Source: Pseudopedobacter saltans DSM 12145 (GTDB lineage: Bacteria > Bacteroidota > Bacteroidia > Sphingobacteriales > Sphingobacteriaceae). Taken from it: a DNA stretch of 64,000 nucleotides. Where the stretch lies: positions 2,666,001 to 2,730,000 of the forward strand of contig NC_015177.1 of the NCBI RefSeq assembly GCF_000190735.1, given 5' to 3'. Position 1 is the stretch's first letter; each line of letters starts with the position of its first letter. This document shows positions 3,186 through 26,284 of the stretch, one piece after another. Under the pieces are notes generated by a model. That model was not told where the DNA came from and did no database searches. It saw nothing but the letters and a program-made list of their open reading frames with translations. Made by a program: the position numbers and the translations under genes.

Positions 3186-3866
3186 TTAAAATTCTAAATT
3201 CCCTAAAGCAGCCATATTTCTTCTTATGATCGCCTGTCTTCTATAGATATATGCGGTAGGATTCACCGGAGTCCATTTTCTTGGATTTGGTAATACCGCA
3301 GCTAAAAGTGCTGCCTCACTTTTCAACAAGCTTTTGCACGATTTATGATAATAGGCTTGTGTAGCCGCTTCAGCACCATAAATACCATCCCCCATTTCAA
3401 TTACATTTAAATAGACTTCCATTATCCTTTGTTTCGACCAAAGCAATTCTATTAAAATTGTGAAATAGGCTTCAAATCCTTTACGGATATATGATCTTCC
3501 TGGCCACAGAAAAACATTTTTTGCTGTTTGCTGTGTTATCGTACTCCCTCCTCTGATCTTCTTACCTGTTTTATTCTTTTGATAAGCTTTTCCCAACGCA
3601 TCAAAATCAAAACCGTTATGGCTTAAAAACTGAGCATCTTCAGCACCAATAACCGCCTTTTTCAAATTCAGAGAGATGTCATCAAAGTCTTTCCATTCTT
3701 TTTCTATTTTCCAGGTCTTGCCATCGAATTTTCTTTCGAATGCCCGTGATATCATCAGATAGGTAAACGGAGGATTTATAAAACGATAGGCGAGAACCCA
3801 AAGAAATGTGAGTACAAAGAACCATAAAAAGAGTTTCTTTAGATATTTAATCAGCAGATTAGCCAC
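3186..3866 (-). CDS. mtgA: monofunctional peptidoglycan transglycosylase
   Basis: A GT51 glycosyltransferase that polymerises lipid II into glycan strands without a transpeptidase domain. One N-terminal membrane anchor (about residues 10-30) is followed by the catalytic domain. Motif 1 GAEDAQFLSHNGFD carries the expected catalytic Glu (residue 76). Motif 2 RGGSTITQQTAKN lies at 105-117, and later motifs include ELLWSKQRIMEVYLN. Length 226 residues is normal for MtgA. It converges on cydB and sits 80 bp downstream of rplI on the same strand, but a terminator separates the two. Confidence 0.93.
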   Translation of the reverse strand: MANLLIKYLKKLFLWFFVLTFLWVLAYRFINPPFTYLMISRAFERKFDGKTWKIEKEWKDFDDISLNLKKAVIGAEDAQFLSHNGFDFDALGKAYQKNKTGKKIRGGSTITQQTAKNVFLWPGRSYIRKGFEAYFTILIELLWSKQRIMEVYLNVIEMGDGIYGAEAATQAYYHKSCKSLLKSEAALLAAVLPNPRKWTPVNPTAYIYRRQAIIRRNMAALGNLEF

Positions 3867-3893
3867 AAGTTTAGATAGGATATTTATTACAAC

Positions 3894-3928
3894 AAAAAAA
3901 TGCCCCTTAGTAATTTAAGGAGCATTTT
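3894..3928 (-). terminator. terminator after rpsF-rpsR-rplI
   Basis: On the minus strand the rplI stop is followed by a stem of AAAATGCTCCTTA with TAAGGGGCATTTT around a short AT loop, then a run of T (plus-strand A run 3894-3900). It isolates the ribosomal operon from mtgA and has some symmetry on the plus strand as well. Confidence 0.85.
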
Positions 3929-3947
3929 CTATATAGCAAAAAGTTTA

Positions 3948-4391
3948 TTATTCAGCAATAACCTCGAAAGGAACCTGAATTTTAACTTCTTTATGTAAGT
4001 TTAAGTTTGCTTTGTACTCACCTACAAATTTAACATCAGAATCAAAAGTGATTCTTCTTCTGTCAACATCGAAACCTAATTTTTTCAATGCATCAGCAAC
4101 CTGAATTGTGTTAACCGCACCGAAGATTTTACCAGTTTCGCCCGCTTTAGCACCAATGCTTAATTTAACATCAGCCAATTTAGCTGCAGTAGCTTCAGCG
4201 TCTTTCTTAATTTTCTCTTGTTTAAACTGAGCTTGTTTAATGTTCTCAGCTAAAACTTTCTTTGCCGACTCAGTAGCTAAAATAGCTTGTCCCTGAGGAA
4301 TCAAATAATTACGGCCGTAACCAGGCTTTACATTAACGACATCGTCTTTCTCGCCTAGTTTTTTTACATCTTGTGTTAAAATTACTTCCAT
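3948..4391 (-). CDS. rplI: 50S ribosomal protein L9
   Basis: L9 binds 23S rRNA in the large subunit. The 147-residue sequence starts MEVILTQDVKKLGEKDDVV and has the N-terminal signature VKPGYGRNYLIPQGQA. A long charged linker helix (about residues 40-75) follows, then the C-terminal domain with KIFGAVNTIQVADALKKLG. Normal length. It is the last gene of rpsF-rpsR-rplI, 14 bp after rpsR, and is followed by a terminator. Confidence 0.97.
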   Translation of the reverse strand: MEVILTQDVKKLGEKDDVVNVKPGYGRNYLIPQGQAILATESAKKVLAENIKQAQFKQEKIKKDAEATAAKLADVKLSIGAKAGETGKIFGAVNTIQVADALKKLGFDVDRRRITFDSDVKFVGEYKANLNLHKEVKIQVPFEVIAE

Positions 4392-4405
4392 GTGAACAGC
4401 CCTCC

Positions 4406-4669
4406 TTATTTTAAACCATCAGTTACGAATGGTAAGATACCGATAATACGAGCTCTCTTAACAGCTTGAGCTACTTTACGCTGATATTTCAAAGAAGTTC
4501 CTGTCAAACGACGAGGTAAAATTTTACCTTGATCGTTGATAAATTTCAATAAAAAGTTAGCGTCTTTGTAATCGATATATTTAATACCGTTCTTTTTAAA
4601 ACGACAATATTTCTTTCTGTTATCCTCCACCTTGGGAGCAGTAACGTATTGGATTTGATCTTTAGCCAT
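4406..4669 (-). CDS. rpsR: 30S ribosomal protein S18
   Basis: S18 pairs with S6 on the platform of the small subunit. The 87-residue protein has the conserved core [18 protein letters not shown] and the C-terminal motif [27 protein letters not shown], split here by its key residues RRxTGTSxKxQR. The start overlaps the rpsF stop in a TAATG arrangement, which suggests translational coupling of the S6:S18 partners. Confidence 0.97.
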
Positions 4670-5034
4670 TAGTTTGCTGCCTCCGCTTTTTCAGATTTCT
4701 TTTTGTTAAAAGCACCAGAACGTTTTTTCTCATTGTACGCTACAGCATGCTTGTCTAATTTAACAGTTAAGAATCTCATTACACGCTCATCGCGTTTCAA
4801 TTCTAACTCATACTTGCCGATAACCTCTCCTGATACCTTGTATTCAGTAATGTGGTAATATCCAGTTGATTTCTTCTCAATTGGATACGCCAATTTTTTC
4901 AGACCCCAATTATCCTCTTGGACAATCTCGGCTCCATTATCAGTTAAGATTTTAGAGAAATTAGCAATTACTTCTTTCGCTGCCTCTTCTGATAATAACG
5001 GGGTAAGAATGATAGTGGTTTCGTATTGACCCAT
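4669..5034 (-). CDS. rpsF: 30S ribosomal protein S6
   Basis: S6 heads the rpsF-rpsR-rplI operon and forms a heterodimer with S18. The 121 residues start [19 protein letters not shown] and include [20 protein letters not shown], the usual S6 core, with the strand [16 protein letters not shown] basic Lys/Ala-rich tail of about 20 residues ([19 protein letters not shown]) extends the fold, which is common in Bacteroidetes. The promoter at 5079-5110 lies upstream. Confidence 0.97.
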
Positions 5035-5059
5035 TGTTATTAATAAATTGTTTTTTATC

Positions 5060-5074
5060 CCTTTACTTTAAAGG
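5060..5074 (-). promoter_or_regulatory. leader hairpin of the rpsF operon
   Basis: CCTTTA (5060-5065) pairs with TAAAGG (5069-5074) around a 3-nt loop in the short rpsF leader. In other bacteria S6:S18 bind a leader hairpin for feedback control. I cannot confirm here that this small stem has that role. Confidence 0.35.
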
Positions 5075-5078
5075 ACTG

Positions 5079-5110
5079 CAAAAATAGATATTTATAAATA
5101 AAAATGCAAC
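5079..5110 (-). promoter_or_regulatory. promoter of rpsF-rpsR-rplI
   Basis: On the minus strand a TATTTTTG -7 box (plus 5079-5086) has a GTTG -33-like element (plus 5107-5110) 20 nt upstream. Spacing and sequence fit the Bacteroidetes housekeeping sigma consensus. The predicted start near 5075 leaves a leader of about 40 nt. Confidence 0.65.
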
Positions 5111-5170
5111 ACAACTTTAAGAGTCTGTGTAAAATTATATTACAGTTTCTTTTATAAGCTATTTTAGGCT

Positions 5171-5200
5171 AAAAAAGACTGCCCAGAAGAAACAGCAGTC
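5171..5200 (-). terminator. second minus-strand terminator-like hairpin
   Basis: GACTGC (5177-5182) pairs with GCAGTC (5195-5200). Read on the minus strand, the stem is followed by six T (plus A run 5171-5176). It lies between the rpsF promoter and the stronger hairpin at 5267-5302. Confidence 0.5.
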
Positions 5201-5266
5201 GGCTCAAGAAAATATAAAGAAACCACACCCCTCATCGAAATATTAAACAGCTTTGAAAATCAAAAT

Positions 5267-5302
5267 AAAAAAGCGGTTCGGCCGGGAGGCCTACCGCTTT
5301 TA
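5267..5302 (-). terminator. strong hairpin terminator with no annotated upstream gene
   Basis: AAAAGCGGT (5269-5277) pairs with ACCGCTTTT (5293-5301), and an inner GGCC/GGCC stem extends it. On the minus strand it runs into CTTTTTTATTTTG, a good U-tract. It would terminate a short transcript starting near 5447. Confidence 0.75.
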
Positions 5303-5351
5303 CACACCTATTAAATTTAAAAATCGTATTGATTTTTGAGGGAAGGCACAA

Positions 5352-5432
5352 CTAAGGCTTTTTTATAGCATTTATATATAAGTAGCTAACAAAACCCATC
5401 ATCAACTTTGCCCAAAGTTTTGTTTTTCTCAT
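5352..5432 (-). CDS. candidate 26-aa small ORF in its own transcript
   Basis: The ORF starts ATG (complement of 5430-5432) and encodes a basic, partly hydrophobic peptide that begins MRKTKLWAKLMMGF and ends INAIKKP before TAG. A perfect TATATTTG -7 box (minus strand, 5451-5458) lies about 15 nt upstream and a strong terminator lies 50 nt downstream, so the unit has promoter, ORF and terminator. I do not recognise the peptide. It could equally be a non-coding RNA in which the ORF is accidental. Confidence 0.4.
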   Translation of the reverse strand: MRKTKLWAKLMMGFVSYLYINAIKKP

Positions 5433-5450
5433 GATTTTACAAATATTTCA

Positions 5451-5458
5451 CAAATATA
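5451..5458 (-). promoter_or_regulatory. -7 box for the candidate small transcript
   Basis: The plus sequence CAAATATA reads TATATTTG on the minus strand, an exact TAnnTTTG match. The nearest TTTG (plus 5485-5488) is 26 nt away, longer than the usual 19-21, so the -33 element is weak. Confidence 0.45.
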
Positions 5459-5669
5459 ACTATAAATTTCATATACAGAAAGATCAAAGCAGACTTAGCA
5501 GTGTGTTTTTTGAAAAAATATTTTTTTATCAATTTTATTAACATAAACAGCATAAAATATCTTATATTTAAAATAAGTGTATCGCTGTTTTCGCACACAC
5601 CTTATTCTTTTAAACTGCTTAACCAAATTTATTTTTCACAATATATCTCCCTCTTATTTTCTCAATAAT

Positions 5670-5701
5670 ATTGTATTATCTATAACATCTTTATATTTTT
5701 G
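5670..5701 (+). promoter_or_regulatory. dnaX promoter with almost no leader
   Basis: ATTG (5670-5673), 20 nt, then TATTTTTG (5694-5701) matches the Bacteroidetes -33/-7 pattern. Transcription would start about 4-5 nt after the G, only 2-3 nt before the dnaX ATG at 5708. This also argues against the TTG at 5699 as start codon, since it lies inside the -7 box. Confidence 0.65.
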
Positions 5702-5707
5702 CTAGCA

Positions 5708-7525
5708 ATGGAGAATTTTATCGTATCGGCAAGAAAATATCGCCCTGTCACGTTCGAAAGCGTAGTAGGTCAATTGCATATAACCAATACCTTAAAAAAT
5801 GCCATCAAAAGCAATCAGCTGGCACAGGCTTTCCTTTTTTGTGGTCCAAGAGGTGTGGGTAAAACTACATGTGCAAGAATTTTAGCAAAAACCATCAATT
5901 GTCAAAATCTTACAGCACAGGGTGAAGCTTGCGGAATCTGCGAATCCTGCAATTCTTTCCTGCATGGCAATTCTTTCAATTTCCATGAGCTGGATGCTGC
6001 ATCCAACAACTCTGTGGATGATATCAGAAATCTTATAGATCAGGTAAGAATTCCACCCCAAGGCGGAAAATACAAGGTTTATATTATTGATGAGGTACAT
6101 ATGTTATCTCAGAGTGCGTTCAATGCTTTCCTAAAAACGCTGGAAGAACCACCTGCCTATGCTATATTTATATTAGCTACAACAGAGAAACACAAAATCC
6201 TTCCTACTATATTATCCAGGTGTCAGATTTTCGACTTCAACAGGATAAAAGTGGAAGACATGGCTGGCCACCTTTCCAAAATTGCAACCCGGGAAGAGAT
6301 TACCTTTGATAATGATGGTCTTCATCTTATCGCCCAAAAAGCCGATGGCGGATTAAGGGACGCGCTCTCTATGTTCGACCAGATTGCAAGTTTTTCCAAC
6401 AGAAACATCAGCTATCAGGCAGTTATAGATAATCTGAATATTCTTGATTATGACTACTATTTCAAGCTAACTGATTTTCTCAATCAGGAAGACACTGCTT
6501 CTACCCTTTTACTATTCAATGAAATATTAAATAATGGGTTCGATGGCAATCATTTCATTAGCGGACTTGCTTCCCATTTCAGAAATGTACTGATATGTAA
6601 AGATCCATCCACTGTTCAGCTATTGGAGGTAAGTGAAAATATCAAACAAAAATACCTGGATCAAAGTAAAGCTACATCCAGTTCATTTTTAATCAGTGCG
6701 CTCAATATCGCCAACCAGTGTGATTTAAATTATAAAATCAGTAAAAACCAAAGATTACAGGTAGAACTGGCATTAATTAAAATAGCACATCTGCAACAAG
6801 CCTTCTCTTTAAGTAAAGATGGAAATGTTCGGGATCATATCGAGCAAGTAAAAAAAAAACCTGAAAATTTAGCACCGCAGGTCAACACAACTATTCCTTC
6901 ACAGGAAAAAAAAACTCCGTTAGTTACTGAAAATACGAACAGCAAGCCAGCAGCAGCTCCCCCTGTCACCTATCAACAGCCTGATAATTCTGCATCTGTT
7001 GTAAGGGAAGAGAAACGGCCTGCCATCAACATTCCTGCCTCTGGAAACAGTCTACTGAAAGGTGGAGGCACTTTGATACCAAATATCAAAAACCCATCTG
7101 CTATAAAAACAGTCAAGGAAGATAAAAATGAACCTGAATATGTTACGGGTGTTGCTACTACCCATTTTACACAGGATGATTTTATAAAAGTATGGGTAGA
7201 TTATTCCAGAATGGCAAAGGAACAGGGAAAAATGAGTTTGGTTTCTCTGATGGACAACTATACCCCTACGTTAAAGGACAATTATAGGATAGAACTTGTA
7301 CTGGAAAATAAGCTGCAGTCTGAAGAGTTAATTTCTGAAAGGATTGATATCCTCAATTATTTAAGAACAAAACTCTCGAACTTCTCTATCACTTTAGAAC
7401 CTATCATTGACGAAGTGGTAAGCGAGAGAAAATTATACACTTCCAAAGACAAATATCAGCATATGGTGGATAAGAATCCGAATATCGATCTGCTGAGACA
7501 GGCCTTTGGGCTAGAGCTGGATTAG
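5708..7525 (+). CDS. dnaX: DNA polymerase III subunit gamma/tau
   Basis: DnaX is the ATPase of the clamp loader of the replisome. In the 605-residue product, Walker A GPRGVGKT is at 46-53. A zinc-binding set of cysteines lies at 65, 75, 78 and 81 (CGICESC). Walker B IIDEVH, sensor LATTE and the SRC arginine-finger motif follow by residue 172. After the clamp-loader core (about 1-350) comes a Pro/Lys-rich linker (about 370-475) and a C-terminal tau-like region. I chose ATG 5708 rather than TTG 5699 because the latter overlaps the promoter. No obvious gamma-type frameshift heptamer was looked for exhaustively. Confidence 0.95.
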   Translation: MENFIVSARKYRPVTFESVVGQLHITNTLKNAIKSNQLAQAFLFCGPRGVGKTTCARILAKTINCQNLTAQGEACGICESCNSFLHGNSFNFHELDAASNNSVDDIRNLIDQVRIPPQGGKYKVYIIDEVHMLSQSAFNAFLKTLEEPPAYAIFILATTEKHKILPTILSRCQIFDFNRIKVEDMAGHLSKIATREEITFDNDGLHLIAQKADGGLRDALSMFDQIASFSNRNISYQAVIDNLNILDYDYYFKLTDFLNQEDTASTLLLFNEILNNGFDGNHFISGLASHFRNVLICKDPSTVQLLEVSENIKQKYLDQSKATSSSFLISALNIANQCDLNYKISKNQRLQVELALIKIAHLQQAFSLSKDGNVRDHIEQVKKKPENLAPQVNTTIPSQEKKTPLVTENTNSKPAAAPPVTYQQPDNSASVVREEKRPAINIPASGNSLLKGGGTLIPNIKNPSAIKTVKEDKNEPEYVTGVATTHFTQDDFIKVWVDYSRMAKEQGKMSLVSLMDNYTPTLKDNYRIELVLENKLQSEELISERIDILNYLRTKLSNFSITLEPIIDEVVSERKLYTSKDKYQHMVDKNPNIDLLRQAFGLELD

Positions 7526-9826: not shown

Positions 9827-10336
9827 TTATTTACTTATTACATCCGCAACGGGAATATTCAATAAGATAGATTGCCCCAGTGCATCAATTCTCAAAATCA
9901 GCCTTTTCTCGTTCTGATATGAAACCATTTCCGCCTCGTACCCTTTAAATTTACCAGAGACAATCTTTACCTTATCTCCACTTTTAATAAATTGTCCCGT
10001 CGTTTCTACTGTAAAATCGCCAGATAAATAAGTTTGCAGGAAATTCATCTCCATATCCGGAACAGAAGCAATCTTACCGGAAAAGTAAATAAACCTTACC
10101 ACCCCCGGCGTTCTCACCACCTGATCATACTGTAAATAATTAATATGGATAAAAACATAGGATTTAAACAGAGGCTCATCCACCCATTTCTTTCGGTCGC
10201 TCCATTGCTTAAGAATCTTTTGCGAAGGCAGATAAACTTCTATTCCCTGCTTCAACAAATTCTCGGCTACCTTCTTTTCAAATCTGGGTTTTGTATAAAT
10301 TGGGTACCACCTATGTCGCTCATCTATCTTCAGCAT
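9827..10336 (-). CDS. UpxY-type NusG-like antiterminator
   Basis: A specialised NusG paralogue. In Bacteroides, UpxY proteins travel with RNA polymerase and allow full-length transcription of their own capsule operon. The 169-residue protein has an NGN domain (about 8-95, starting RWYPIYTKPRFEKKVAENLLKQ in its key residues WYxxYTxPRxEKKV) and a KOW motif at about 119-140 (SGDKVKIVSGKFKGYEAEM). It follows the WecA-like gene after 9 bp on the same strand, as the last gene of the minus-strand arm. The plus-strand export operon starts 7.6 kb away, so it may act in trans. Confidence 0.88.
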   Translation of the reverse strand: MLKIDERHRWYPIYTKPRFEKKVAENLLKQGIEVYLPSQKILKQWSDRKKWVDEPLFKSYVFIHINYLQYDQVVRTPGVVRFIYFSGKIASVPDMEMNFLQTYLSGDFTVETTGQFIKSGDKVKIVSGKFKGYEAEMVSYQNEKRLILRIDALGQSILLNIPVADVISK

Positions 10337-10345
10337 AACTTAGAC

Positions 10346-11449
10346 TTACTTCCAAAGATATTCAATCTTTAGTTCCTTTCTCTCTTTAATCCTTAACAGT
10401 ATAGTAGTTATCCAGTTAATTAACATGCAAACAACAAAAAACAAAGCTATTAATAGCCCATTTCCAAAGCCTCTAAAAATAATAGCCAGGTATATAAATA
10501 AAATATTGGTTATCGCCAGAGCGAGTGTTGCTTGTAAATGAGAAAATCCCAATTTCAATATTCTGTGGTGAATATGGTTTCTATCTGCACTGAAAGGAGA
10601 TCTGCCCTGCATAATCCTCAACATAAAAACCCGGAAGGTATCAAATAAGGGTATAATCAATACCGATACTGCCGTTGCCGGTGCAGATAAAAATGCAGGG
10701 CGTGGCATTGTACTGCTAAACTTATTCAGTTCGATAAATTTGATGGCCAATACAATCGAAATCAATCCCACCAACAGACTTCCTGTATCTCCCATAAATA
10801 TTCTTGATGGAGAGAAATTATAATACAGAAAACCAGCCAGGGCTCCTACCAAACTAAACGCTAAAATAGCCAGCCCCAGTTCACCCATATGTATAAACAT
10901 CACTGCAAAAGTCAGGCTTACAATAATACCAATTGTTCCGGCCAAGCCATCAATACCATCTATCAAATTAAAGGCATTGATAAAAAACATAATGATTAAT
11001 ACCGACAATGAAATACTGGAAAAGTAATTGATATCCCACATTCCGAAAACTCCGTACAAGCTGCTTAACCTTACATCCCCCATCGTTACTAAAATCAATG
11101 CTACAATAAACTGCATGATAAACTTAGTTGTCGGACTTGTACCCGCCAGATCATCCTTCAGGCCTACCGCAAAAAGTATGATACAGGAAGTCAGTAAGAC
11201 ATTTGTTGACAATACATCATCGTACTTGGCAAAAAGTAAAGAAACAATCGTAAATGCACAAAATATGGCTACCCCTCCCAAACGCGAAATACCATGCTGA
11301 TGGTCTTTTCGATCCTTCTCCAGATCATCATACAGATGCCTTGTGTTTGCTACAAATATGATAGAGGGTATTGCAAAAAAGGTTACCGCAGCAGAGAGCA
11401 TTATAATCAATACGTTATATAGCCAGGGCCATTCCAGGTTTAGTGACAT
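10346..11449 (-). CDS. WecA/MraY-type sugar-phosphate transferase
   Basis: An integral membrane enzyme (GT4-like PNPT family) that transfers a sugar-1-phosphate to undecaprenyl phosphate and starts the lipid-linked glycan. The 367 residues contain about ten hydrophobic segments. The active-site patterns of the family are present: DD at 99-100, NAFNLIDGIDGLAG at 158-171, FMGDTGS at 218-224 and the HIHH motif at 292-295 on cytoplasmic loops. WecA (GlcNAc-1-P) is more likely than MraY because of context. It lies between a GT2 and the UpxY gene. Confidence 0.92.
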   Translation of the reverse strand: MSLNLEWPWLYNVLIIMLSAAVTFFAIPSIIFVANTRHLYDDLEKDRKDHQHGISRLGGVAIFCAFTIVSLLFAKYDDVLSTNVLLTSCIILFAVGLKDDLAGTSPTTKFIMQFIVALILVTMGDVRLSSLYGVFGMWDINYFSSISLSVLIIMFFINAFNLIDGIDGLAGTIGIIVSLTFAVMFIHMGELGLAILAFSLVGALAGFLYYNFSPSRIFMGDTGSLLVGLISIVLAIKFIELNKFSSTMPRPAFLSAPATAVSVLIIPLFDTFRVFMLRIMQGRSPFSADRNHIHHRILKLGFSHLQATLALAITNILFIYLAIIFRGFGNGLLIALFFVVCMLINWITTILLRIKERKELKIEYLWK

Positions 11450-11625: not shown

Positions 11626-12372
11626 CTATTTTATATATTGCCCTATTTTGCGCAATGGTTTCAATGCTGCAACCAAAAACGGAAAAGCCACGCCATTTAC
11701 TTTCATTGCCGCCCGGTCTTCCGCATTCGCCCTTATGCGGTTCTTCAAAGTTTTATTGCTTATTCCCCCAACCCGCATCTTCACCAAAACCTGTGGCAAA
11801 TAAGCAGTTTCTATTTTATATTTATATAAAAAACGTAATATCAAATCGTAATCTGCAGCCGAACGATATTGTAAATCATAAAGCCCATACTTATGGAAGC
11901 ATTCCGTTTTAATAAACAATGCCGGGTGTGGTGGCATCCATCCATAAGCCAGCTTAGCTAAATCGTAACTACCTGACTTCCAGTTTCTGACCACTTTATC
12001 CGTATTATCACGCTCTACATAAAGCAAATCACCATAAACCGCATCTAAATGAGGATTGGCTTTAAAAGCTTCCGCCACGTTATTCAACACCTCTGCATTA
12101 TAAAACATATCGTCTGAATGCAATATGCCTATAATATCTCCCGAGGCAAGCTTTACCCCTTTATTCAATGCATCATAAATCCCTCCATCTTGCTCAGAAA
12201 TCATCTTACCAACAATTGCCGACTTTTCTATAATTTGTAAAGTTTCATCTGTTGATCCTCCATCTACCAATACCAGTTCTTTTTCAGCATAACTTTGTTC
12301 TTTAAAAGATTCCAAAGCATCGGCTAAAAAGCTGGCAGAATTATAGGTTGAGGTAATAATAGATATCAACAT
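11626..12372 (-). CDS. family 2 glycosyltransferase
   Basis: A 248-residue GT-A fold transferase. The nucleotide-binding start LISIITSTYNSASFLADALES is followed by LVLVDGGSTDETLQII, GGIYDALNKGVKLASGDIIG and the DxD-like HSDDM near residue 95. The GIYDALNKG motif is the WcaA-like subgroup that also occurs at 29556, 30429 and 32010. It starts 1 bp after the stop of the PID-tail peptide gene and so is likely co-transcribed with it. Acceptor and donor are unknown. Confidence 0.9.
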   Translation of the reverse strand: MLISIITSTYNSASFLADALESFKEQSYAEKELVLVDGGSTDETLQIIEKSAIVGKMISEQDGGIYDALNKGVKLASGDIIGILHSDDMFYNAEVLNNVAEAFKANPHLDAVYGDLLYVERDNTDKVVRNWKSGSYDLAKLAYGWMPPHPALFIKTECFHKYGLYDLQYRSAADYDLILRFLYKYKIETAYLPQVLVKMRVGGISNKTLKNRIRANAEDRAAMKVNGVAFPFLVAALKPLRKIGQYIK

Positions 12373-12373
12373 T

Positions 12374-12604
12374 CTATTCCTTTTCTGCGTTATCTTCTCT
12401 TTTCATTTTCAAAGCTTTGTAGCCTAAGGCTGCTCCGCCTGCAAGTAATGCGAAAGCTCCACCGTCTATGGGAACATCTCCCCATGGATCTGGAGGAGCT
12501 CCGCCATCATCACAAAAAGGATCCTCTTCTGGACATTGTGCATAGATTGCGATACAACAAAAAGACAGGCTTAAGCTCAACAAAATATATTTTAATCCTT
12601 TCAT
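12374..12604 (-). CDS. small secreted peptide with PID-type exosortase tail
   Basis: A 76-residue precursor. A signal peptide (about 1-22, ending IYAQ) is followed by a short acidic segment with two Cys (24, 31) and Pro-rich PPDPWGD. Then comes PIDGG at 45-49, a hydrophobic helix (about 50-62) and the basic end KALKMKR (63-69). This order of motif, helix and basic tail is the layout of PEP-CTERM-like exosortase substrates. I recall a Bacteroidetes 'PID-CTERM' variant, but cannot check it here. The presumed released product is only about 22-27 residues. It follows the 1174-aa protein by 8 bp, and an exosortase-like gene lies at 43999-44544. Confidence 0.8.
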   Translation of the reverse strand: MKGLKYILLSLSLSFCCIAIYAQCPEEDPFCDDGGAPPDPWGDVPIDGGAFALLAGGAALGYKALKMKREDNAEKE

Positions 12605-12612
12605 TTTTCTTA

Positions 12613-15600
12613 CTAGTTTTTAACAATCTTCTCCATACCAATTCTCTGTCCACTGGATCCTAACAATTCAATCATATAAACTCCGATTTTTAAATCTTCA
12701 ACAGGCAGATTAACCTCTTCGATATGTTCTCCTGAAAATTGAACAGATCTTATTAACGAGCCATTAGCTCCTAAAATATTCGCAGTCAATTTTCCGTAAA
12801 AAGCATTGCTGGTTTTAAACTTAACTTCACCCTTTACAGGATTTGGATATAAAACAAATACCTTATTTGAGACCGTTAAATCGATTTTTACAGTCTTGAT
12901 CGAGGTTACCTTTCCCACTCCATCAGCGTTTACCTGCTTAATTCTATAGTAATTATTACCCATATTTGGTTGCTGATCTACATACAAATAACTTCCTATG
13001 CCTACTGCATTTATCTTTGCTATTTCTTTAAAAACACCTCCATCATATCCCTTCTCTATTATATAGATATAGTCCTTTTCTTCTTTTACTACGCTCCATT
13101 TAAGCTCAACTACATTATCCAATTTTTTAACATCAAAACTAGTAAATTCCACAGGTAGTACACCGGATGGATTGTATGATAAAGAAAGCCTATTGCTACC
13201 GAAAGTATTAGCATTGCTTGTGTTTACTACAAAATCATATCGCCTATTGCTTTCGCTTATAATCTGCTCCGTATTTGTAAAAGCATCTTTCAATACTAGT
13301 AATTTATCTGCTATTTCAGGAATTTCATCAAAATTCAAAGTCATTACAGAACTAACCTTATTATTGACATTCAACTTCAAAGGGAGCTCCAAATCGTTGG
13401 AAGACATCAAGTTTATAGCCAAGGGCTTATTATCTGAAGACTGAGTGGATAGATTAATATTGTATCCCGAACCTGCCATATAAGGAGAGTCTTGTCCATC
13501 AGCGAGAGAACTAAATCCAGAATCAAACGCAACAATAGTCTCCTCTGAAAATGGCCCACTGCTTAGACGTAGTTTTAGTAAAGTTGGCTTCTCCAATGTA
13601 AAATTAGCAACAGGCACTAATAAAACTTTGCCAGATCTCGATTCTAAAACATTTCTTTCTTTTACATTTAATAGTCTTGCCGGCACTTCATTTATATTTT
13701 TATGCGACTCCCGGAAACTTAGCGTCCCTCCCCCTACATTTGCATAAACATAAAAGCCCTGCCCTGGTTGTATATATCTGGATCCACCGTTAACCCCTAC
13801 ACCTAAAGCAGCATTATACGTTGCCATTGGCCGTCCTCCAAAAACCACTGAAATAGAAGGTGTTAAATTAGATGAAGAAGCATATACTTTATGCCAGTCT
13901 ATCGTTGCTGGATATGGATTCCCTCCAATAAAGGCGCCTTGCAAAGTAGTTTTAGCAGAATTATACCCAATAGGCACGTCTATATTCCCTTTATTAATAG
14001 GTCCGGCATAAGTTAATGAGACACTCTCCGCATCAACAAAAGGCTGCCTTAATTTCCCTGGTGTAGAATCTTTAAAATCCCTATTTCCAATAAAAAGATA
14101 CAAAAAACCTCTTCCTCCGCCTGAAGGACTATTTATATTTGGTAGAGGAACAAAAGAGTTTGATGTTAAACTATTATCATAAGTCAACACCATATCTGCG
14201 TTTTTAAGGCCTGAGGGAACTTCATCAAAACCATTCACAACTCCACCATTTCCTGTAATAATCATATATTTCTTCAACTGTGCGAACGTCTTATCTCCAG
14301 AAATCAATGCGTCATTAATAGGAGAAGACATAGTTCGACTTCCTCTTACAGCTCCATAATCTATCCCACTTAAAAATGATTGAATCTTTACTTCACCAAC
14401 AACATCTGCAGTACCTTGCAAAGGGCCTATATTAGCATTAGAACTGGGTGAAGCTAATAAAGTCAGGTTTCCATTAGCATTTAAAACAGCATTGTTCACT
14501 GTTACATTATTACTCACTGTAGCCGGAGCCGTAATTGTTTTTGTTCCCGCTCCTGCAACATCTAAATCATAATAGGAAATTCCAGCCACATTCTGATTGC
14601 CAGAACCATTATAAGATATCTTATAGGTACTAGTATTTACAGAACTTGCCCCGCTGACATCAAAATCATTGCTAATTGAGAGATTCCCTGTTAAAGTTTT
14701 AGCACTTTCTGAAAGTTTCAAATTATTATATTGGCCGCTAACTATAGTCTGGGTAGAACTTCCATTGTACTCTACAGTACCATTCCATGTTTTGCCTGTA
14801 CTTAATGGATTTACCGAAGTATTTTGTGTTCTTAATGTTCCGCCTCCAGACAAACCAATAGCGCCAGTAGTGATTAGAGCATTGGCCCCCAAGTCCAAAT
14901 AACCATTTGAAATATTTAAACCTCCATTCACAGTTAAATTGCCCGACCTTAGGGTAACTCCTGAACTATTATCTATGGTTAAATTATTGACACTTGCCGG
15001 CAGGCCTGTGCCTGTTTGCTGTGCTATAGAAGCATTAAATACATAATTGGCGTTAGGGCTAAAAGTCCGGACTCCTGTAGATTGAATAGCTCCGGTTGTT
15101 CCTGTTAATGCTATTCCTTCTGGATGGGCTGTGATTAAAGTAACGCCATCTTGGACAGTAAACGTACCGGTAACTAAGTTACTTATAGTAGAAGTCGCTA
15201 AATTTACTATACTGTTTTCAGACACTTGAAACCGTAGTGCCCCGTAAAAATGCCCACTATTAATATCTATTTTCTGCTCTGACGTACCAGAAAATATAAT
15301 AACCCCTTTACTACTTCCGGATCCTTTTGCAAAATAGCCTCCTTGTAAATTCACGTCGCCAGTTACTCTTAATGTTGTTGTTAAAGAAGCATTGTTGGTA
15401 TTTATCATTGCAAAATAACCATCATATTGTAGTAGATTTTTTATCTTAAAATCCGAATTCGTAACTGACAAATTGGCTCCACCAAGCCCCGTACTTAATA
15501 TAGTAAAGTTATTTCTTACCGTTGCATTAACTATCAATAAAGAGGGACCGGTATTTACCAGTTGATTAGGACAATTCCAAGTTAAATTAAAAAAGTTTTG

Positions 15601-16137
15601 GTTTGCACCTTGAATCCCTCCGTTCGAGCTTGTAAAGCCTATTATCTGACAATCTGATCCATCTTCCCAAGTAGCTAAAGGTATTGTTCCTGGAGACGCC
15701 TTATAATTATGCTGATAGACCCCTTGACTATAAAAAACCAAACTTCCCATTGGTGTTACAGTTCCTTCACTTTTTAAAATCCCCGATACACCGAAATCTG
15801 TAGTTGCAGCACCGTTAGCTATAATCAAAGTAATTCCGGATAATACATCTACTGTACCACCAACTTCTATTTCTACATCATCCAGTGTTATATTTGCTGT
15901 CACTATTGCGGTATGCCCATACCGAATCTGGATTTTAGTGGCATCTGTATTTGGAATTAATGTTGCATTAGACCAGACAATATTGTCTACAGAACTTTCC
16001 CAAGTATTTATATCGTTCCAATTCCCACTTTGTTTGGTTCGGAAATAATCTGTAGCAGAGCTTGCTTTTACTACTTTAGAGAGCGCCATTATAGCACATA
16101 CAGATACAATATATCTAAAAAGTATATTTTTCACCAT
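12613..16137 (-). CDS. large T9SS-sorted surface protein
   Basis: A 1174-residue secreted protein. The signal peptide is about residues 1-26 (ending KVVKASSA). A long region rich in Gly, Asn, Thr and Ser, with repeated strand-turn patterns such as LTVNGGLNISNGYLDLGANAL in its short motifs, suggests a beta-helix or adhesin body. Near the C-terminus is the LPVEFTSF segment common in Bacteroidetes, then a typical type IX secretion domain (about 1095-1174, starting VLYPNPVKG and ending GMEKIVKN). It heads the minus-strand arm. I infer an adhesin or matrix protein; the ligand is unknown. Confidence 0.85.
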   Translation of the reverse strand: MVKNILFRYIVSVCAIMALSKVVKASSATDYFRTKQSGNWNDINTWESSVDNIVWSNATLIPNTDATKIQIRYGHTAIVTANITLDDVEIEVGGTVDVLSGITLIIANGAATTDFGVSGILKSEGTVTPMGSLVFYSQGVYQHNYKASPGTIPLATWEDGSDCQIIGFTSSNGGIQGANQNFFNLTWNCPNQLVNTGPSLLIVNATVRNNFTILSTGLGGANLSVTNSDFKIKNLLQYDGYFAMINTNNASLTTTLRVTGDVNLQGGYFAKGSGSSKGVIIFSGTSEQKIDINSGHFYGALRFQVSENSIVNLATSTISNLVTGTFTVQDGVTLITAHPEGIALTGTTGAIQSTGVRTFSPNANYVFNASIAQQTGTGLPASVNNLTIDNSSGVTLRSGNLTVNGGLNISNGYLDLGANALITTGAIGLSGGGTLRTQNTSVNPLSTGKTWNGTVEYNGSSTQTIVSGQYNNLKLSESAKTLTGNLSISNDFDVSGASSVNTSTYKISYNGSGNQNVAGISYYDLDVAGAGTKTITAPATVSNNVTVNNAVLNANGNLTLLASPSSNANIGPLQGTADVVGEVKIQSFLSGIDYGAVRGSRTMSSPINDALISGDKTFAQLKKYMIITGNGGVVNGFDEVPSGLKNADMVLTYDNSLTSNSFVPLPNINSPSGGGRGFLYLFIGNRDFKDSTPGKLRQPFVDAESVSLTYAGPINKGNIDVPIGYNSAKTTLQGAFIGGNPYPATIDWHKVYASSSNLTPSISVVFGGRPMATYNAALGVGVNGGSRYIQPGQGFYVYANVGGGTLSFRESHKNINEVPARLLNVKERNVLESRSGKVLLVPVANFTLEKPTLLKLRLSSGPFSEETIVAFDSGFSSLADGQDSPYMAGSGYNINLSTQSSDNKPLAINLMSSNDLELPLKLNVNNKVSSVMTLNFDEIPEIADKLLVLKDAFTNTEQIISESNRRYDFVVNTSNANTFGSNRLSLSYNPSGVLPVEFTSFDVKKLDNVVELKWSVVKEEKDYIYIIEKGYDGGVFKEIAKINAVGIGSYLYVDQQPNMGNNYYRIKQVNADGVGKVTSIKTVKIDLTVSNKVFVLYPNPVKGEVKFKTSNAFYGKLTANILGANGSLIRSVQFSGEHIEEVNLPVEDLKIGVYMIELLGSSGQRIGMEKIVKN

Positions 16138-16377: not shown

Positions 16378-17383
16378 AACGTGAGTTCGGGATAATAGAA
16401 TTGTCTTTTTAAAGAACAAAAAATAGATTAAATTACTGATTATCAAATAATTAAGCATATTTTATTATATTTAAGTACCAAATTAAAACTATAACTTGAT
16501 ATGCTTACTCCTTCTAAAGTTACCGAAATTTTTGTTCAAGTTGATATTTCTGTAAAGAATTTGAACTTGAGATCATCCAACATAAGCTTAATGCGGGAAA
16601 TTGCAAAGCCAGAAACCGTAAGGCCTCACTTGCTGATAGTGAGATCATCACTATTCTGATAGCTTTTCATACCGGACATTTCACCAATCTCAAGCACTTT
16701 TACATTGGTCACATCTGTTCTTATTACAGAGATTATTTTCCTGGACTTGTATCCTATAACCGTTTTGTAGAACTGCAGCAAAGAGTAGCGATACCCATGA
16801 TGCTGTTTCTGAAAAACAGATGTCTGGGACAGTCCCATGGCATCAACTTTATCGATTCTACACATATCAAAGTATGCCATAACAGGCGCATACATAGCCA
16901 TAAAGTGTTTTCCCTGGTTGCAGAGCGAGGGCAATGTTCCATCGGATGGTTCTATGGATTCAAGCTTCACCCGATCATCAATGACAGGGGGGAAATATTA
17001 TCCTTTTATCTTACAAAGGGCAATTGATGACCTCTATGACCCAGCAGGATATTCGGCAAGCTGTTTGGGACAAAGGTTACATATCAAAAGCATTAGCTGA
17101 TCTGCTCTGGGGAAATGGTGTTCAAATGATTACCAAACCAAGAAAGAACATGAAGGATTTTAACATCTCGCAAGCTGATAAGATTATGCTCAGAAAAAGA
17201 GCCTTAATCGAATGTGTGAACGATGAATTAAAGAATATATGCAAGCTGCAGCATACCGGGCACCGTTCGGTAAATAACTTCCTGATGAACACAATGGGCG
17301 CACTTTGTGCCTATCATTTCTTCCCTAAAAAGCCCTCTAAAGACAGACAGATGTTATTGACCGCTTAAACCGAATTCACGTTT
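16378..17383 (+). mobile_element. decayed IS982-family insertion sequence
   Basis: A 1.0-kb element with imperfect terminal inverted repeats: left ACGTGAGTTCGGGATA (16379-16394), right complement ACGTGAATTCGGTTTA (17366-17381), 13 of 16 matching. Its stop codon lies inside the right repeat. ATTT occurs once on each side (16374-16377 and 17384-17387). A nearby intact copy of the host repeat has it only once, so it is the likely target duplication, although a longer one is possible. Confidence 0.8.
16501..17368 (+). pseudogene. frameshifted IS982 transposase
   Basis: The reading frame starts MLTPSKVTEIFVQVD and then loses one base near 16545 (VDxFCKEFE continues in another frame). A second lesion at about 17024 cuts the frame after LSFYLTKGN, and at least one more lies before DKGYIS near 17068. 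Joined, the pieces give the IS982 catalytic pattern: NFIDSTHIKVC, RIHSHKVF, GFKLHPIINDRGEILSF, DKGYIS and KRALIECVNDELKN with the final Glu. The element cannot make an intact transposase. Confidence 0.88.
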
Positions 17384-17943: not shown

Positions 17944-18735
17944 ATGTTTAATTATTGTAAAACACTACTATTATTTAGTTTTGTAGTCTTTACCCTAAGT
18001 TCCTGTTCTTCGAGAAGGAATATTCTATTTAATACGGTTAATGAAAAAAGCATCCCTGATTTGCCTGTATATACTGTACAAGAAGGCTCTACAGAGTCAA
18101 ACACAAAAGAACAGATTATACAACCCGGCGATTTATTAAGTATACGCAACTTGCAGAATGAAGCATTAATATCCGGCCTGGGTGGACAGAATCTGCAAAC
18201 GATGAGCCATACCAACAGCATAGGATATCGTGTAGAAGCAGATGGTACTGTTTTACTTCCAGTTATTGGCAAAGTGAAATTGGGTGGCATGGACCGTTTA
18301 CAGGCACAGGAGGAATTAAACCGACTTTATCAGACTCAATTGCTAAATGCTCCTATTATCACCCTGCAGATCAGCAACCTGACGGTTACTTTCCTGGGGG
18401 AATTTGGCAGACAAGGTAATTTTATCTTACAAAAAGACCAGGTACACCTGGTACAGATGCTGGGCGAAGCGGGCGGATTGAATACACGCGCTAACAAAAG
18501 GAAAGTTAAAATTATACGTGGTGATCTAAAACATCCTGAAGTGTTAATTGCCAATCTGGAAGATATCAATAGCCTCTCTGACCCCAGGTTAATGCTTAGA
18601 AACAATGACGTTGTTTATGCGGAACCCCGCGGCGCATTCCAGACTTTAGACCGCTTAGGTCCTACCACTTCGCTATTGGGGATAGGGTTAAGCATATTAA
18701 ATATTTATCTGTTAATCTCCAATTTAAGCAAATAA
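17944..18735 (+). CDS. Wza-type outer-membrane polysaccharide export lipoprotein
   Basis: An OPX-family protein that forms the periplasmic/outer-membrane exit channel for polysaccharide. The 263-residue precursor has a lipoprotein signal with lipobox LSSC (Cys about residue 21). It then has a Poly_export domain (about 50-140, with QPGDLLSIR and a VEADGTVLLPVIGKVKLGG segment in short motifs) and one SLBB-like domain (about 145-235, with VTFLGEFGRQG). A single hydrophobic segment near the C-terminus (GIGLSILNIYLLI) may be a membrane anchor. The wzc-like gene starts at its last base. Confidence 0.9.
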   Translation: MFNYCKTLLLFSFVVFTLSSCSSRRNILFNTVNEKSIPDLPVYTVQEGSTESNTKEQIIQPGDLLSIRNLQNEALISGLGGQNLQTMSHTNSIGYRVEADGTVLLPVIGKVKLGGMDRLQAQEELNRLYQTQLLNAPIITLQISNLTVTFLGEFGRQGNFILQKDQVHLVQMLGEAGGLNTRANKRKVKIIRGDLKHPEVLIANLEDINSLSDPRLMLRNNDVVYAEPRGAFQTLDRLGPTTSLLGIGLSILNIYLLISNLSK

Positions 18736-21110
18736 TGGCCGGTACCGATAAACGTGTGAAACAAGAGATTAACTACGCTAAATTCTTTAATATTATATTA
18801 AGCAGATGGTATTGGGTAACCCTTACCCTGTTACTTTCTTTGGGTGCAGCTTATGCCTATTTATGGTATACCCCAAAAATCTATAGTACCTCTGCTTTTC
18901 TTAAATTCGAAGAAAAACAGCCTAACCTGAGTAATTCCGTAAGTTTAGCTCCGCTCACACGCACTTATACTAATAAAATATTATCAGAAAGCTGGACCTT
19001 CAAAAGTAGAAAAGTAATACAGGAAGCTGTTAGCCTGATTGACTGGCAGGTGAGCTATTTTCTAAAGGGAAAAATCAGAATTACCGATCTGTATCCAAAC
19101 AAACCTTTTACAGTACATATCCTCAAGCAGGATTCTTCTTTTTATAACCAGGCTATAGATATTACGCCTTTAGAGAAAGGATTCCGACTGGAATATGCCA
19201 ATCACAAAAAAGATTATGCATTTGGCAGCCCTATCAATATACCAGGTATCAGCTTCTATATCGAAGCTAAAGACAAGCTATCTACTGTAGCCACTTACCA
19301 GATCAAGTTCAACTATCCTTCTGAATTTTATGGCAGGATGGGCGCCAATCTCAACATTTCGGAGACAGCGAAATACTCTAATATAGCCAGCGTATCTAAA
19401 ACAGATGAAAACCCCTATTTTGCTGCTGATGCATTAAATGCTATTATTAAAGTTTACCTGTCTCAGGATCTGCAGAATAAATCCCAGTCTGCCAAACAGA
19501 TTATCGAATTTATTGATACCCAGCTAGATCAGCTATCCAGCTCTGTACGACTATCTGGGGAGAAATTACAAAACTTCAAACAGTCTAATAATTTTCTGGA
19601 TTTAAGTTCGAGTGCGTCCACTGCACTAGCCGAAGTTACTAAGCTAGAAACGGCGATGCGCACCGCAGACATCCAGCTTTTACAACTGGAGCAATTGCAA
19701 AAGCAGTTTTTGAAGAATAATCAAACCATCAGCTTAAATTTTAACCTGGATGGCACCGTAGATCCTATGCTCAGCAACCTGCTAAACCAATGGAATACTT
19801 TAGTACAGGAACGTATCTCGTTAGTAGGAACATATAAAGAAAATGCCAAACCTATAATAGATATTGACAGCAAGCTGGATATCATCAGATCTGCTGCAGA
19901 GGAGAATATCAAGTCGAGTATTAACCGGATTAAACAGTTCAAAAACTTTAATCAGGCCGAACTAAATAAAGCTTATACCTCTTTGCAAAGCATGCCCTCA
20001 CAGGAAAGGCAACTGTTTGGCCTGCAAAGAGATTATAATATCAACGACAAGATCTATAGCTTTTTGTCGGAAAAAAAACTAGAAGCACAGATTAGCAAAG
20101 CTTCCATTATGCCTGATGCCAGCTCTATAGATCCTGCTATACCTAATTTTGCTCCGGTATCTCCTGTTGCCAATGCTGTATGGCGTTTTGCTTTTGTTAT
20201 TGGCATTCTGTCTGGCGTAGGCTTAATCTTTTTAGCGAGAGCACTCAATCCTTATATTTACGATAAGGAGACTATCGAAAGTATCAGTAATACTCCTATC
20301 ATTGGAATTATCCGTCATTTCCCGGTAAAGGTAGATGAAAACAACACCCAAATTTTAACTGCTTTAAAACCTAAGTCTGTTTTTGCGGAATCGGTACGTT
20401 CGGTAAGAACTAACTTAAGTTTTATCGCCAGCGAGAAATCCAGCAAGGTCATTTTTGTTTCTTCGGAAATCGCAGGTGAAGGTAAATCTTTTGTTACCAT
20501 CAACCTGGCCAGCAGTCTGGCATTGATCGATAAAAAAGTGATTATTATAGCAGCGGACTTACGTCGTTCTAAAGTGCATCATACTTTCGATATTAAGAGT
20601 AAGGCGGGCCTGAGTACCTATCTGGCGCATAAAAACAATCTGGATGATATTATCCATCACACTCAACAGGAAAATATGGATTTAATTGTTGCGGGGCAAA
20701 ATCCGCCTAATCCATCGGAGCTGATGTATTCGCCCAGATTATTGGAAATGATTGAAGAATTGAAAAAGAGATATGATTATATTCTCTTCGATACGGCACC
20801 TATAGGCCTGGTTTCCGATGCTTTACCACTTATTCAATATTCCGATATTAATCTATTTGTCATCCGTACCGGTGTTTCCAAACTTTCTGCTGCAGAAATT
20901 CCTGACCGTATCAATAATGAACATGAGTTAAAAAATACTTATATAATTCTGAACGACTACCGTCCGGAAGTGCTTTATTCAACATATTACAATACTAAAT
21001 ACAATGATAACTACGCCGGTTACTATTATGCAAACAATACCGGTTATGACTATGGGTATTATACGGATGAAATGAAGAAAAAGTCCTGGTGGAAGTTTTG
21101 GGATAAATAG
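18735..21110 (+). CDS. Wzc-type copolymerase with tyrosine kinase
   Basis: A 791-residue inner-membrane protein that controls chain length and couples polymerisation with export. The N-terminal Wzz domain is flanked by two membrane segments (about 28-48 and about 478-500), with a coiled-coil periplasmic part between. A GNVR-like QERQLFGLQRDY lies near residue 418. The cytoplasmic BY-kinase domain has Walker A EIAGEGKS (about 576-583), Walker A' IIAADLRRS and Walker B YILFDTAP. The C-terminus is a Tyr cluster (STYYNTKYNDNYAGYYYANN and more), the expected autophosphorylation sites. It overlaps the export gene by 1 bp. Confidence 0.95.
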   Translation: MAGTDKRVKQEINYAKFFNIILSRWYWVTLTLLLSLGAAYAYLWYTPKIYSTSAFLKFEEKQPNLSNSVSLAPLTRTYTNKILSESWTFKSRKVIQEAVSLIDWQVSYFLKGKIRITDLYPNKPFTVHILKQDSSFYNQAIDITPLEKGFRLEYANHKKDYAFGSPINIPGISFYIEAKDKLSTVATYQIKFNYPSEFYGRMGANLNISETAKYSNIASVSKTDENPYFAADALNAIIKVYLSQDLQNKSQSAKQIIEFIDTQLDQLSSSVRLSGEKLQNFKQSNNFLDLSSSASTALAEVTKLETAMRTADIQLLQLEQLQKQFLKNNQTISLNFNLDGTVDPMLSNLLNQWNTLVQERISLVGTYKENAKPIIDIDSKLDIIRSAAEENIKSSINRIKQFKNFNQAELNKAYTSLQSMPSQERQLFGLQRDYNINDKIYSFLSEKKLEAQISKASIMPDASSIDPAIPNFAPVSPVANAVWRFAFVIGILSGVGLIFLARALNPYIYDKETIESISNTPIIGIIRHFPVKVDENNTQILTALKPKSVFAESVRSVRTNLSFIASEKSSKVIFVSSEIAGEGKSFVTINLASSLALIDKKVIIIAADLRRSKVHHTFDIKSKAGLSTYLAHKNNLDDIIHHTQQENMDLIVAGQNPPNPSELMYSPRLLEMIEELKKRYDYILFDTAPIGLVSDALPLIQYSDINLFVIRTGVSKLSAAEIPDRINNEHELKNTYIILNDYRPEVLYSTYYNTKYNDNYAGYYYANNTGYDYGYYTDEMKKKSWWKFWDK

Positions 21111-24904: not shown

Positions 24905-25147
24905 ATGACGGGAGCAGATAATATCAGGAACAGTATCATAGATAAATTGTTGACTATAACGAATCAGGAATACCTGACCGCACTTTATCAATTAGTTAAT
25001 AAAAGTAATGTTAATGACGATTGCATAAACCTTTCCGAAGCGCAGATTCTCATGTTAAACATGAGCGATGATGACATAAAAAACAACAGAGTAATTAGTC
25101 AAAAAGAACTGGACAAAACAGACTTGGAGTGGCTAAAAAGCTTGTAA
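24905..25147 (+). CDS. antitoxin of a ParE/RelE-type module
   Basis: An 80-residue acidic protein placed directly before a ParE/RelE-like toxin, whose GTG start lies 19 bp inside this gene. No DNA-binding domain is clear; the middle has NLSEAQILMLNMSDDDIKNN and the C-terminus ends LDKTDLEWLKSL, probably the toxin-binding part. The role is inferred from gene order, size and overlap. Confidence 0.7.
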   Translation: MTGADNIRNSIIDKLLTITNQEYLTALYQLVNKSNVNDDCINLSEAQILMLNMSDDDIKNNRVISQKELDKTDLEWLKSL

Positions 25148-25605: not shown

Positions 25606-25796
25606 TTATACAACCAGAGAGCAAGGAGCAATTGGCTGCCATTAAAGCTTTTCTTAAAGTATTGAACGTAAACTTTAAGGCTAACCATGTAAAACACCCA
25701 GCTAATCAATTCGACTTTTCTGATATTGCCGGAAAATTAGAGTGGGAAGGAGATGCTTTAAAAGAACAAAAGAAATTACGTTCTGAATGGGATTGA
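25593..25796 (+). CDS. antitoxin paired with a PIN-domain toxin
   Basis: A 67-residue protein starting METLIIQPESKEQLAAIKAFLK, a start shared with the antitoxin at 49644 and the remnant at 24825. The C-terminal half (DFSDIAGKLEW...KLRSEWD) likely binds the toxin. It overlaps the PIN gene start by 10 bp. That the same antitoxin N-terminus serves a PIN toxin here and a YoeB-type toxin at 49829 points to module shuffling. Confidence 0.8.
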   Translation: METLIIQPESKEQLAAIKAFLKVLNVNFKANHVKHPANQFDFSDIAGKLEWEGDALKEQKKLRSEWD

Positions 25797-26164: not shown

Positions 26165-26284
26165 AAATCGAACTTCGTTGAACGACAAATTATAATCTGA
26201 ATAGACCTAAGCATCAGTATTCATTAAGGCTAAGATTAAGCAATTCCTCAACCTCAGTCTCAACCTTAATCTCAACCTAAAAAC

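Follow-up and report, generated by a model that had tools for sequence, protein, structure and literature searches.

A PID-CTERM micropeptide of Pseudopedobacter saltans as probable exosortase substrate, and the pairing of such micropeptides with domain-defined type IX secretion cargo

Introduction

Why would a genome with a single exosortase carry its only recognisable sorting tail on a micropeptide rather than on a conventional surface protein? The question is raised by a small gene at 12374-12604 (minus strand) of what we call the window, the whole 64,000-nucleotide stretch of the Pseudopedobacter saltans DSM 12145 genome that was analysed (contig NC_015177.1, positions 2,666,001 to 2,730,000). 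An earlier note on this DNA had described the gene as encoding a 76-aa precursor with the tail of an exosortase substrate, and its coordinates and length proved correct.

The PEP-CTERM/EpsH (XrtA) system shares with the present one a C-terminal motif combined with a transmembrane helix and further motifs, as well as exopolysaccharide genes, and EpsH was linked to PEP-CTERM by profile comparison; it differs in having many substrates per genome (83 in a Nostoc/Anabaena pair), whereas a single micropeptide is found here (PMC1569441).

Results

The micropeptide precursor carries a PID-CTERM tail

Minus-strand translation of 12374-12604 gives MKGLKYILLSLSLSFCCIAIYAQ-CPEEDPFCDDGGAPPDPWGDVPIDGG-AFALLAGGAALGYKALKMKREDNAEKE, with a signal peptide at the N-terminus and a sorting tail at the C-terminus, both predicted from hydropathy and sequence. 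The N-terminus is hydrophobic up to Ala22 and ends in IYA before a Gln; residues 1-22 (12539-12604, minus strand) form the predicted signal peptide, with a putative signal peptidase I site of the Q-rule type between A22 and Q23. Substrates of signal peptidase I in Bacteroidetes typically have this form, with the Gln cyclised (PMC5837995). The predicted mature body, Q23-D47 (12464-12538, minus strand), has the length of about 25 residues that had been expected to remain after processing, and it is acidic (8 acidic, 0 basic, 6 Pro and 2 Cys over 25 residues). The tail runs from P45 (12377-12472, minus strand) and consists of PIDGG, a hydrophobic stretch and basic residues. The layout proposed before, a signal peptide, an acidic two-Cys body, PIDGG, a helix and a basic end, was thus retained as a whole, but its last two elements were less clear-cut: the short, Gly/Ala-rich stretch after PIDGG makes a weak helix, because its best 15-residue mean hydropathy is only 1.5, and the C-terminal residues REDNAEKE are of mixed character, not basic throughout.

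The precursor matched NF046080 (PID-CTERM) at 32.9 bits against a cut-off of 26 (E = 4e-8). In a search of the whole genome it scored 34.6 bits and was the sole match at E <= 10, which is the outcome of the search for further tails that the note had suggested; Pfam returned nothing for the micropeptide at E <= 1, including no T9SS tail. The assignment as an exosortase sorting tail held up on three grounds, namely the score over the cut-off, one tail and one exosortase in this genome, and the strict co-occurrence of the two (below), and we consider it very probable that the micropeptide is an exosortase substrate that would be cleaved at this tail. As such it is a fresh member of a curated family, and this part of the reading was mostly already known: we take NCBI to pair the PID-CTERM model with its XrtX (NF046081) and XrtY (NF046083) models, and the window shares with that system the tail over the cut-off, one XrtY-like exosortase and the glycosyltransferase XYAG1. 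NF046080 covers the 25-residue tail only, and the pairing with T9SS cargo is what we add here.

The small size of the peptide is a family trait. When PID proteins were parsed into signal peptide, Q, body and P-x-D, a scheme that fitted 75 of 88, the bodies measured 14-59 residues with a median of 17, and 73/75 fell within 14-38.

A single exosortase lies in the same locus

One exosortase over threshold was found in the genome, at 43999-44544 on the plus strand (ATG at 43999, ORF 43963-44544). Its ORF starts 31.4 kb from the peptide gene, in agreement with the 31 kb and the common locus noted earlier. It exceeds the cut-offs of the exosortase/archaeosortase superfamily (TIGR04178, 42.7 vs. 23 bits; PF09721, 37.6 vs. 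25.7 bits), and we name it XrtY-like because NF046083 scored highest among the exosortase models listed and yet stayed under its cut-off (133 vs. 160 bits). The XrtY-associated XYAG1, which accompanies XrtY systems, is encoded nearby (41117-42430, plus strand; 559 bits vs. a cut-off of 400). Cys, Arg and His, presumably the catalytic residues, are invariant in 15/15 aligned exosortases, the window's included. The exosortase gene is overlapped by a GT2 glycosyltransferase gene (43155-44018, plus strand), which in some relatives is fused to it: eight long GT2-XrtY-type frames were found in the XrtY search, and PF00535 stood at the N-terminus of all five long forms scanned (L244, L245, L246, L248, L249). 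Small ORFs like toxin-antitoxin parts (RelE/ParE-like and PIN-like, by eye) were seen inside the polysaccharide locus at 25129-26647 and 42695-43090.

Tail and exosortase co-occur across genomes

We surveyed 296 sampled Bacteroidota genomes (tail threshold E <= 1e-4) and found an exosortase in 112 and a PID-CTERM tail in 48. The co-occurrence of tail and protease, which the earlier note had named as one of its checks, was strict: the exosortase was present in 48/48 genomes with the tail, and the tail in 0/184 genomes without the exosortase (exosortase in 48/48 PID genomes vs. 64/248 others; Fisher p = 2e-24, phylogeny ignored). For the family, we searched 101 genomes with a broader profile (A1; frames < 160 aa, E <= 1e-3) and found the tail in 34/43 genomes with an exosortase from the XrtY search vs. 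1/58 without, and the exosortase in 34/35 tail genomes vs. 9/66 others (p = 2e-17, phylogeny ignored). The lone family genome with a tail and no exosortase (G034) is 93% complete and in about 70 contigs.

The peptide gene follows a T9SS cargo gene

The neighbour upstream of the peptide gene, its stop 8 bp away, is the gene of a 1174-aa T9SS cargo, the partner (12613-16137, minus strand), with a Por_Secre_tail T9SS type A sorting domain at 12643-12852 (minus strand); the score of 31.1 bits for PF18962, against a cut-off of 27, bears out the previous description of a large T9SS-sorted neighbour. A glycosyltransferase gene (11626-12372, minus strand) starts 1 bp downstream of the peptide gene, and because these gaps are only 8 bp and 1 bp, the T9SS, peptide and glycosyltransferase genes are likely co-transcribed. 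On the same strand follow genes for a WecA-like undecaprenyl-phosphate sugar-1-phosphate transferase (10346-11449, under NCBI's WecA cut-off) and a UpxY-family antiterminator (9827-10336); a Wza-like polysaccharide export protein (17944-18735) and a Wzc-like chain-length/tyrosine kinase (18735-21110) are encoded divergently on the plus strand. This layout, the T9SS-peptide-glycosyltransferase block with divergent Wza-Wzc, is repeated in 4/8 other genomes of the genus (G018, G040, G054, G084), with the WecA-like gene seen in three of these four blocks and split into two pieces in one. Elsewhere in the genus the PID gene adjoins the exosortase instead (G075), the exosortase is present and no tail was detected (G097), or neither PID tail nor exosortase was found (G065, G091). 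By partner domain, the closest named loci are those of Pedobacter puniceum, glucosidilyticus, psychrophilus and segetis. Short ORFs resembling transposase remnants (by eye) occupy 16626-17368 of the window, in the gap that separates the T9SS gene from Wza.

PID neighbourhoods were collected from all 48 PID genomes of the phylum survey (46, G021 and the window) and from further family genomes, one or two places being taken per genome and not every PID gene. Ninety PID-like ORFs were scored, and those of G013 and G081 (< 20 bits) were dropped, leaving 88 from 80 genomes (34 family, 46 others). A T9SS-tail gene, recognised by our own T9SS profile, lay within 500 bp upstream and in the same orientation for 69/88 PID genes, and many of these pairs overlap or are separated by gaps of a few bases; Pfam PF18962 (E <= 0.01) was found on 69/79 distinct upstream genes. 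The window's genome has 30 PF18962-type tails in 4.6 Mb, and with about 1 gene per kb we estimate that such a neighbour is expected by chance for roughly one gene in a hundred. Nothing else around the peptide gene is as conserved as the T9SS neighbour. The earlier note had seen a peptide in place of a typical surface protein, and while the tiny body stands, the peptide is usually accompanied by a surface protein. Among the 19/88 PID genes that had no T9SS-tail gene just upstream by our profile, five stand directly before an exosortase (L127, L144, L196, L197, L207), one (G215) has a partner recognised by the domain described below only, and the remaining 13 have neither explanation. In L195 and L203 the genes for T9SS cargo, peptide and exosortase directly follow one another.

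The partners share a pre-tail domain

A domain profile was grown from the window's own partner protein on the partner set. The domain spans about 310 residues (GNPYPxTIDW, GQGFFV and RF.L.F motifs) between the body and the T9SS tail, lies at 13174-14160 (minus strand; GNPYP...GQGFYV...) in the window's partner, and occurs in 67/69 distinct partners, one of which is truncated where its stretch ends; the two partners without it are contig-end stubs of 116 and 117 aa. It is absent from the 29 other T9SS cargos of the genome (0/29, best 7.1 bits), and the whole genome gave a single match at E <= 1e-10. Across the phylum, at a best E <= 1e-25, the domain was found in 93 genomes, 75 of them with an exosortase, and in 47/48 PID genomes; an exosortase was present in 37/203 genomes without the domain. 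We rejected the domain as an exosortase-specific marker, since 18/93 domain genomes have no exosortase. It often occurs in several copies per genome and therefore marks a cargo family, only part of which has a micropeptide.

A structure model of the domain was predicted with a mean pLDDT of 78.7 and had no clear relative in the PDB (Foldseek best E 0.32, VIA best Z 4.9), and a profile search gave a weak partial match (E = 2.6e-4, query positions 46-124) to Mfa5 (6to1), whose annotation is minor fimbrium subunit. A regular expression for a penultimate LPVE-type domain matched only 4/69 partners and was dropped.

A search from the domain leads to XrtF loci with micropeptides

For a test in the reverse direction, 78 named loci were picked by the pre-tail domain alone, blind to the peptide. 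The exosortase profile found an exosortase in the stretch around the domain gene in 14 of them (L363, L369, L370, L371, L374, L375, L378, L383, L386, L388, L392, L402, L404, L406), and a micropeptide with a signal peptide and a P-I/L-x tail was present in 14/14 of these loci, a count that rests on reading the tails by eye. Its position ranged from a 4 bp overlap with the T9SS-domain gene to 84 bp after it. A hydropathy scan for ORFs with signal peptide and tail was noisy (candidates at 38/95 domain ORFs vs. 23/170 other long ORFs of the same loci); of the 12 listed candidates at other long ORFs, most lack a P-I/L-x tail and one, in L360, has a PLD tail.

XrtF exceeded its NCBIfam cut-off in eight of the 14 loci (L363, L369, L378, L386, L388, L402, L404, L406) and XrtY in L370, the exosortase of L392 was nearest to XrtX and under the cut-off, and the fragment in L374 was also under the cut-off; these assignments cover the 11/14 exosortases given to NCBIfam, with L371, L375 and L383 left out. 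The micropeptides of L370 and L392 end in PIDDY and PIANG tails, respectively. In the other twelve loci (L363, L369, L371, L374, L375, L378, L383, L386, L388, L402, L404, L406) we observed a distinct tail subtype beside the exosortase, VPITGIE, VPISGIE or close to these (VPITGLE in L378, APISGIE in L374, VPLTGIE in L406). All ten micropeptides scanned with NCBIfam were below the PID-CTERM cut-off, and the nine of the PITGIE/PISGIE type among those scanned reached no curated cut-off. The XrtF system of Flavobacterium johnsoniae (TIGR04128, TIGR04127) combines an exosortase with a small membrane partner; the XrtF loci found here resemble the window in that T9SS cargo and micropeptide are present, and differ from it in the mostly PITGIE/PISGIE ends of the micropeptides, which in those scanned score under the PID-CTERM cut-off.

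The order of genes in L404 is a NeuD-like acetyltransferase, XrtF, a TIGR04127-like membrane protein (28.9 bits, cut-off 35), a DegT-family aminotransferase, the T9SS cargo, the micropeptide and a Polysacc_synt_2 dehydratase-like protein, so that, by predicted function, this locus holds the makings of an amino sugar beside the sorting enzyme. A NeuD-family gene also precedes the exosortase in L386.

The targets of XrtF were called not yet known in a 2025 paper (PMC12188702). In F. johnsoniae, deletions of xrtF, Fjoh_1449 (the xrtF neighbour), porU, porZ, Fjoh_0334 (a DegT aminotransferase gene) and Fjoh_0651 share one phenotype row, with little biofilm and zorbs absent; Fjoh_0651 is a small hypothetical gene, complemented by a 434-bp insert that includes the presumed promoter (PMC10936215). 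We regard Fjoh_0651 as a candidate micropeptide gene, and the genetics fits a joint action of the exosortase and the T9SS.

The micropeptide accompanies part of the cargo family. In the blind set, a PID-profile match (E <= 0.05) lay downstream of 29/92 domain ORFs with room downstream, and in a further scan of 30 domain genes from 28 selected genomes, Flavobacterium-like ones among them, a P-I/L-x micropeptide was found at 8 (L301, L322, L407, L434, L410, L411, L413, L425) and none downstream of the other 22. These two fractions and the 19 PID genes without a T9SS-tail gene just upstream weigh against the overall explanation proposed below, as do the several copies of the domain and its presence without an exosortase, the lack of a clear structural relative for it, the exosortase of G097 with no tail detected, the score of the window's exosortase under the XrtY cut-off, and XrtY genomes of another genus (g14) with longer proteins and no T9SS partner. 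We nevertheless hold that micropeptide and T9SS partner probably do form a functional unit. The novel part of this work is that, in many families, micropeptides are paired with T9SS cargo defined by one domain.

The mature body is constrained, and its cysteines recur

In two pairs of genus relatives the mature body is under purifying selection. The bodies of L124 and L128 differ by 12 synonymous and 1 nonsynonymous codon differences over 24 codons, vs. 2 synonymous and 10 nonsynonymous over 23 codons in their signal peptides; those of L125 and L126 differ by 10 synonymous and 1 nonsynonymous over 23 codons, vs. 7 and 12, respectively, over 29 codons. Taken with partner proteins that are 71% and 62% identical in these pairs, the codon differences indicate that the body is more constrained than its own signal peptide and the partner. 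Bodies elsewhere are short and mostly a Pro-rich stretch, which argues that the exact body sequence matters less there.

Two Cys are present in 21/24 parsed bodies of the window's family, while 50/51 parsed bodies outside it are Cys-free, the remaining one (G144) having two; by eye, a Cys pair was also seen in five XrtF-type micropeptides (L371, L374, L375, L383, L386). A peptide-partner disulfide as a general rule was dropped, the Cys pair being recurrent and not universal.

Discussion

As the best explanation of the whole we propose, with moderate confidence, that the micropeptide is the sole PID substrate of the sole exosortase, becomes linked to a glycan and acts together with the T9SS cargo. 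The Sec machinery and signal peptidase I would remove residues 1-22, leaving the 25-residue peptide anchored by its tail in the inner membrane; the exosortase would then cut at P-I-D or immediately behind it. Acting like a sortase, it would pass the new C-terminus of the peptide on, and the acceptor we consider most likely is an amine on a lipid-linked glycan belonging to this locus. In this scheme the cleavage, the acceptor and the docking described below are inferred. We favour a glycan because the locus is glycan-rich, GT2-XrtY fusions exist and amino-sugar genes surround XrtF in L404; conjugation of the peptide to a glycan, which the earlier note had suggested, is plausible, if slightly on the doubtful side. 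The T9SS cargo would reach the cell surface by the other secretion system, and the conjugate would act with it there, a glycan-borne peptide serving most likely as a site for docking or retention of the cargo in the capsule or biofilm matrix. Docking as the role of the peptide we nonetheless think rather unlikely when taken by itself. T9SS type A cargo is glycolipid-anchored through a linking sugar (PMC7468200), and the partner protein shares the T9SS tail of such cargo; the micropeptide differs from it in having no T9SS tail and would take the exosortase route.

Glycan-linking by the exosortase would also be compatible with a T9SS neighbour that is there through shared regulation, or as one half of a mobile gene pair, and has no joint function with the peptide. 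The glycan-rich locus, XYAG1 and the GT2-XrtY fusions agree with this, as do the five PID genes that adjoin an exosortase and not a T9SS gene; however, the pairing is kept across families and also outside any polysaccharide locus, start-stop overlaps and few-bp gaps are frequent, and the T9SS genes belong to a single domain-defined family, so that we judge this alternative unlikely. We give less weight again to an uncleaved 76-aa helper, a membrane-anchored chaperone or inhibitor by which the T9SS cargo would stay in a competent state while in the periplasm. Gene order and the tight coupling to the cargo gene would suit such a helper, and some PID proteins extend past the basic patch, but it would carry a curated sorting signal that strictly co-occurs with an exosortase, and its mature part is short (median 17) and differs between lineages, unlike a chaperone.

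A diffusible, pheromone-like signal, cut free by the exosortase and tied to matrix production, appears improbable to us: length and a two-Cys body would suit a peptide signal, as would the conservation of the body among genus relatives, yet on viewing the neighbourhoods, non-systematically, we saw no gene for a receptor or sensor next to those of the peptides, and the mostly Pro-rich bodies outside the family, Cys-free in 50/51, are unlike a specific signal. Least probable is a relic, in which a PID tail that once ended a large protein was detached as the T9SS tail replaced it. The peptide gene does lie immediately 3' of the cargo gene, and L254 has a large membrane protein to which a PID-like tail is fused, but the peptide has its own signal peptide and a body under purifying selection, co-occurs strictly with the exosortase and is spread over many families.

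Extending the glycan-linked unit of micropeptide and T9SS cargo beyond the window, we advance more tentatively the idea that XrtF, XrtX and XrtY of Bacteroidota mainly make a glycan-conjugated micropeptide of about 14-40 residues, the dedicated partner of T9SS adhesins with the GNPYP domain, and that the missing XrtF targets are these micropeptides. If so, two secretion routes would build one surface structure. Exosortases are widespread in the phylum (112/296 sampled genomes), and the module supplies candidate targets for them, many with a domain-bearing T9SS partner; it would explain why a micropeptide, and no ordinary surface protein, bears the only tail of the genome. It also predicts shared phenotypes of exosortase and T9SS mutants, with which several F. 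johnsoniae deletions agree (PMC10936215). The pairing includes XrtF loci with tails that the curated models miss, which makes it worth following. In the literature searched, with subscription papers and preprints outside its scope, the term 'PID-CTERM' was not found, and within the same scope the partial texts on exosortases with type IX secretion, T9SS or Pedobacter held no account of the pairing; for XrtX, XrtY, XrtF and XrtN, exosortase work was evident for XrtF only, judged from titles.

Two further kinds of protein were seen. At 3615-6536 (minus strand) of L254 (genome G261) lies the gene of a multi-pass membrane protein of 973 aa that has a PID-like tail at its end (DVPIDGEVWVLLAGG...) and resembles what we take to be the large partner of another exosortase system. 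XrtY genomes of one genus (g14; L155, L156, L157) encode Cys-containing secreted proteins that are small (about 126-193 aa) and have no T9SS partner, several per locus and in two loci beside Wza/Wzc, whose weak tails are PLDD-, PIDD-, PIDN- or PIDQ-like.
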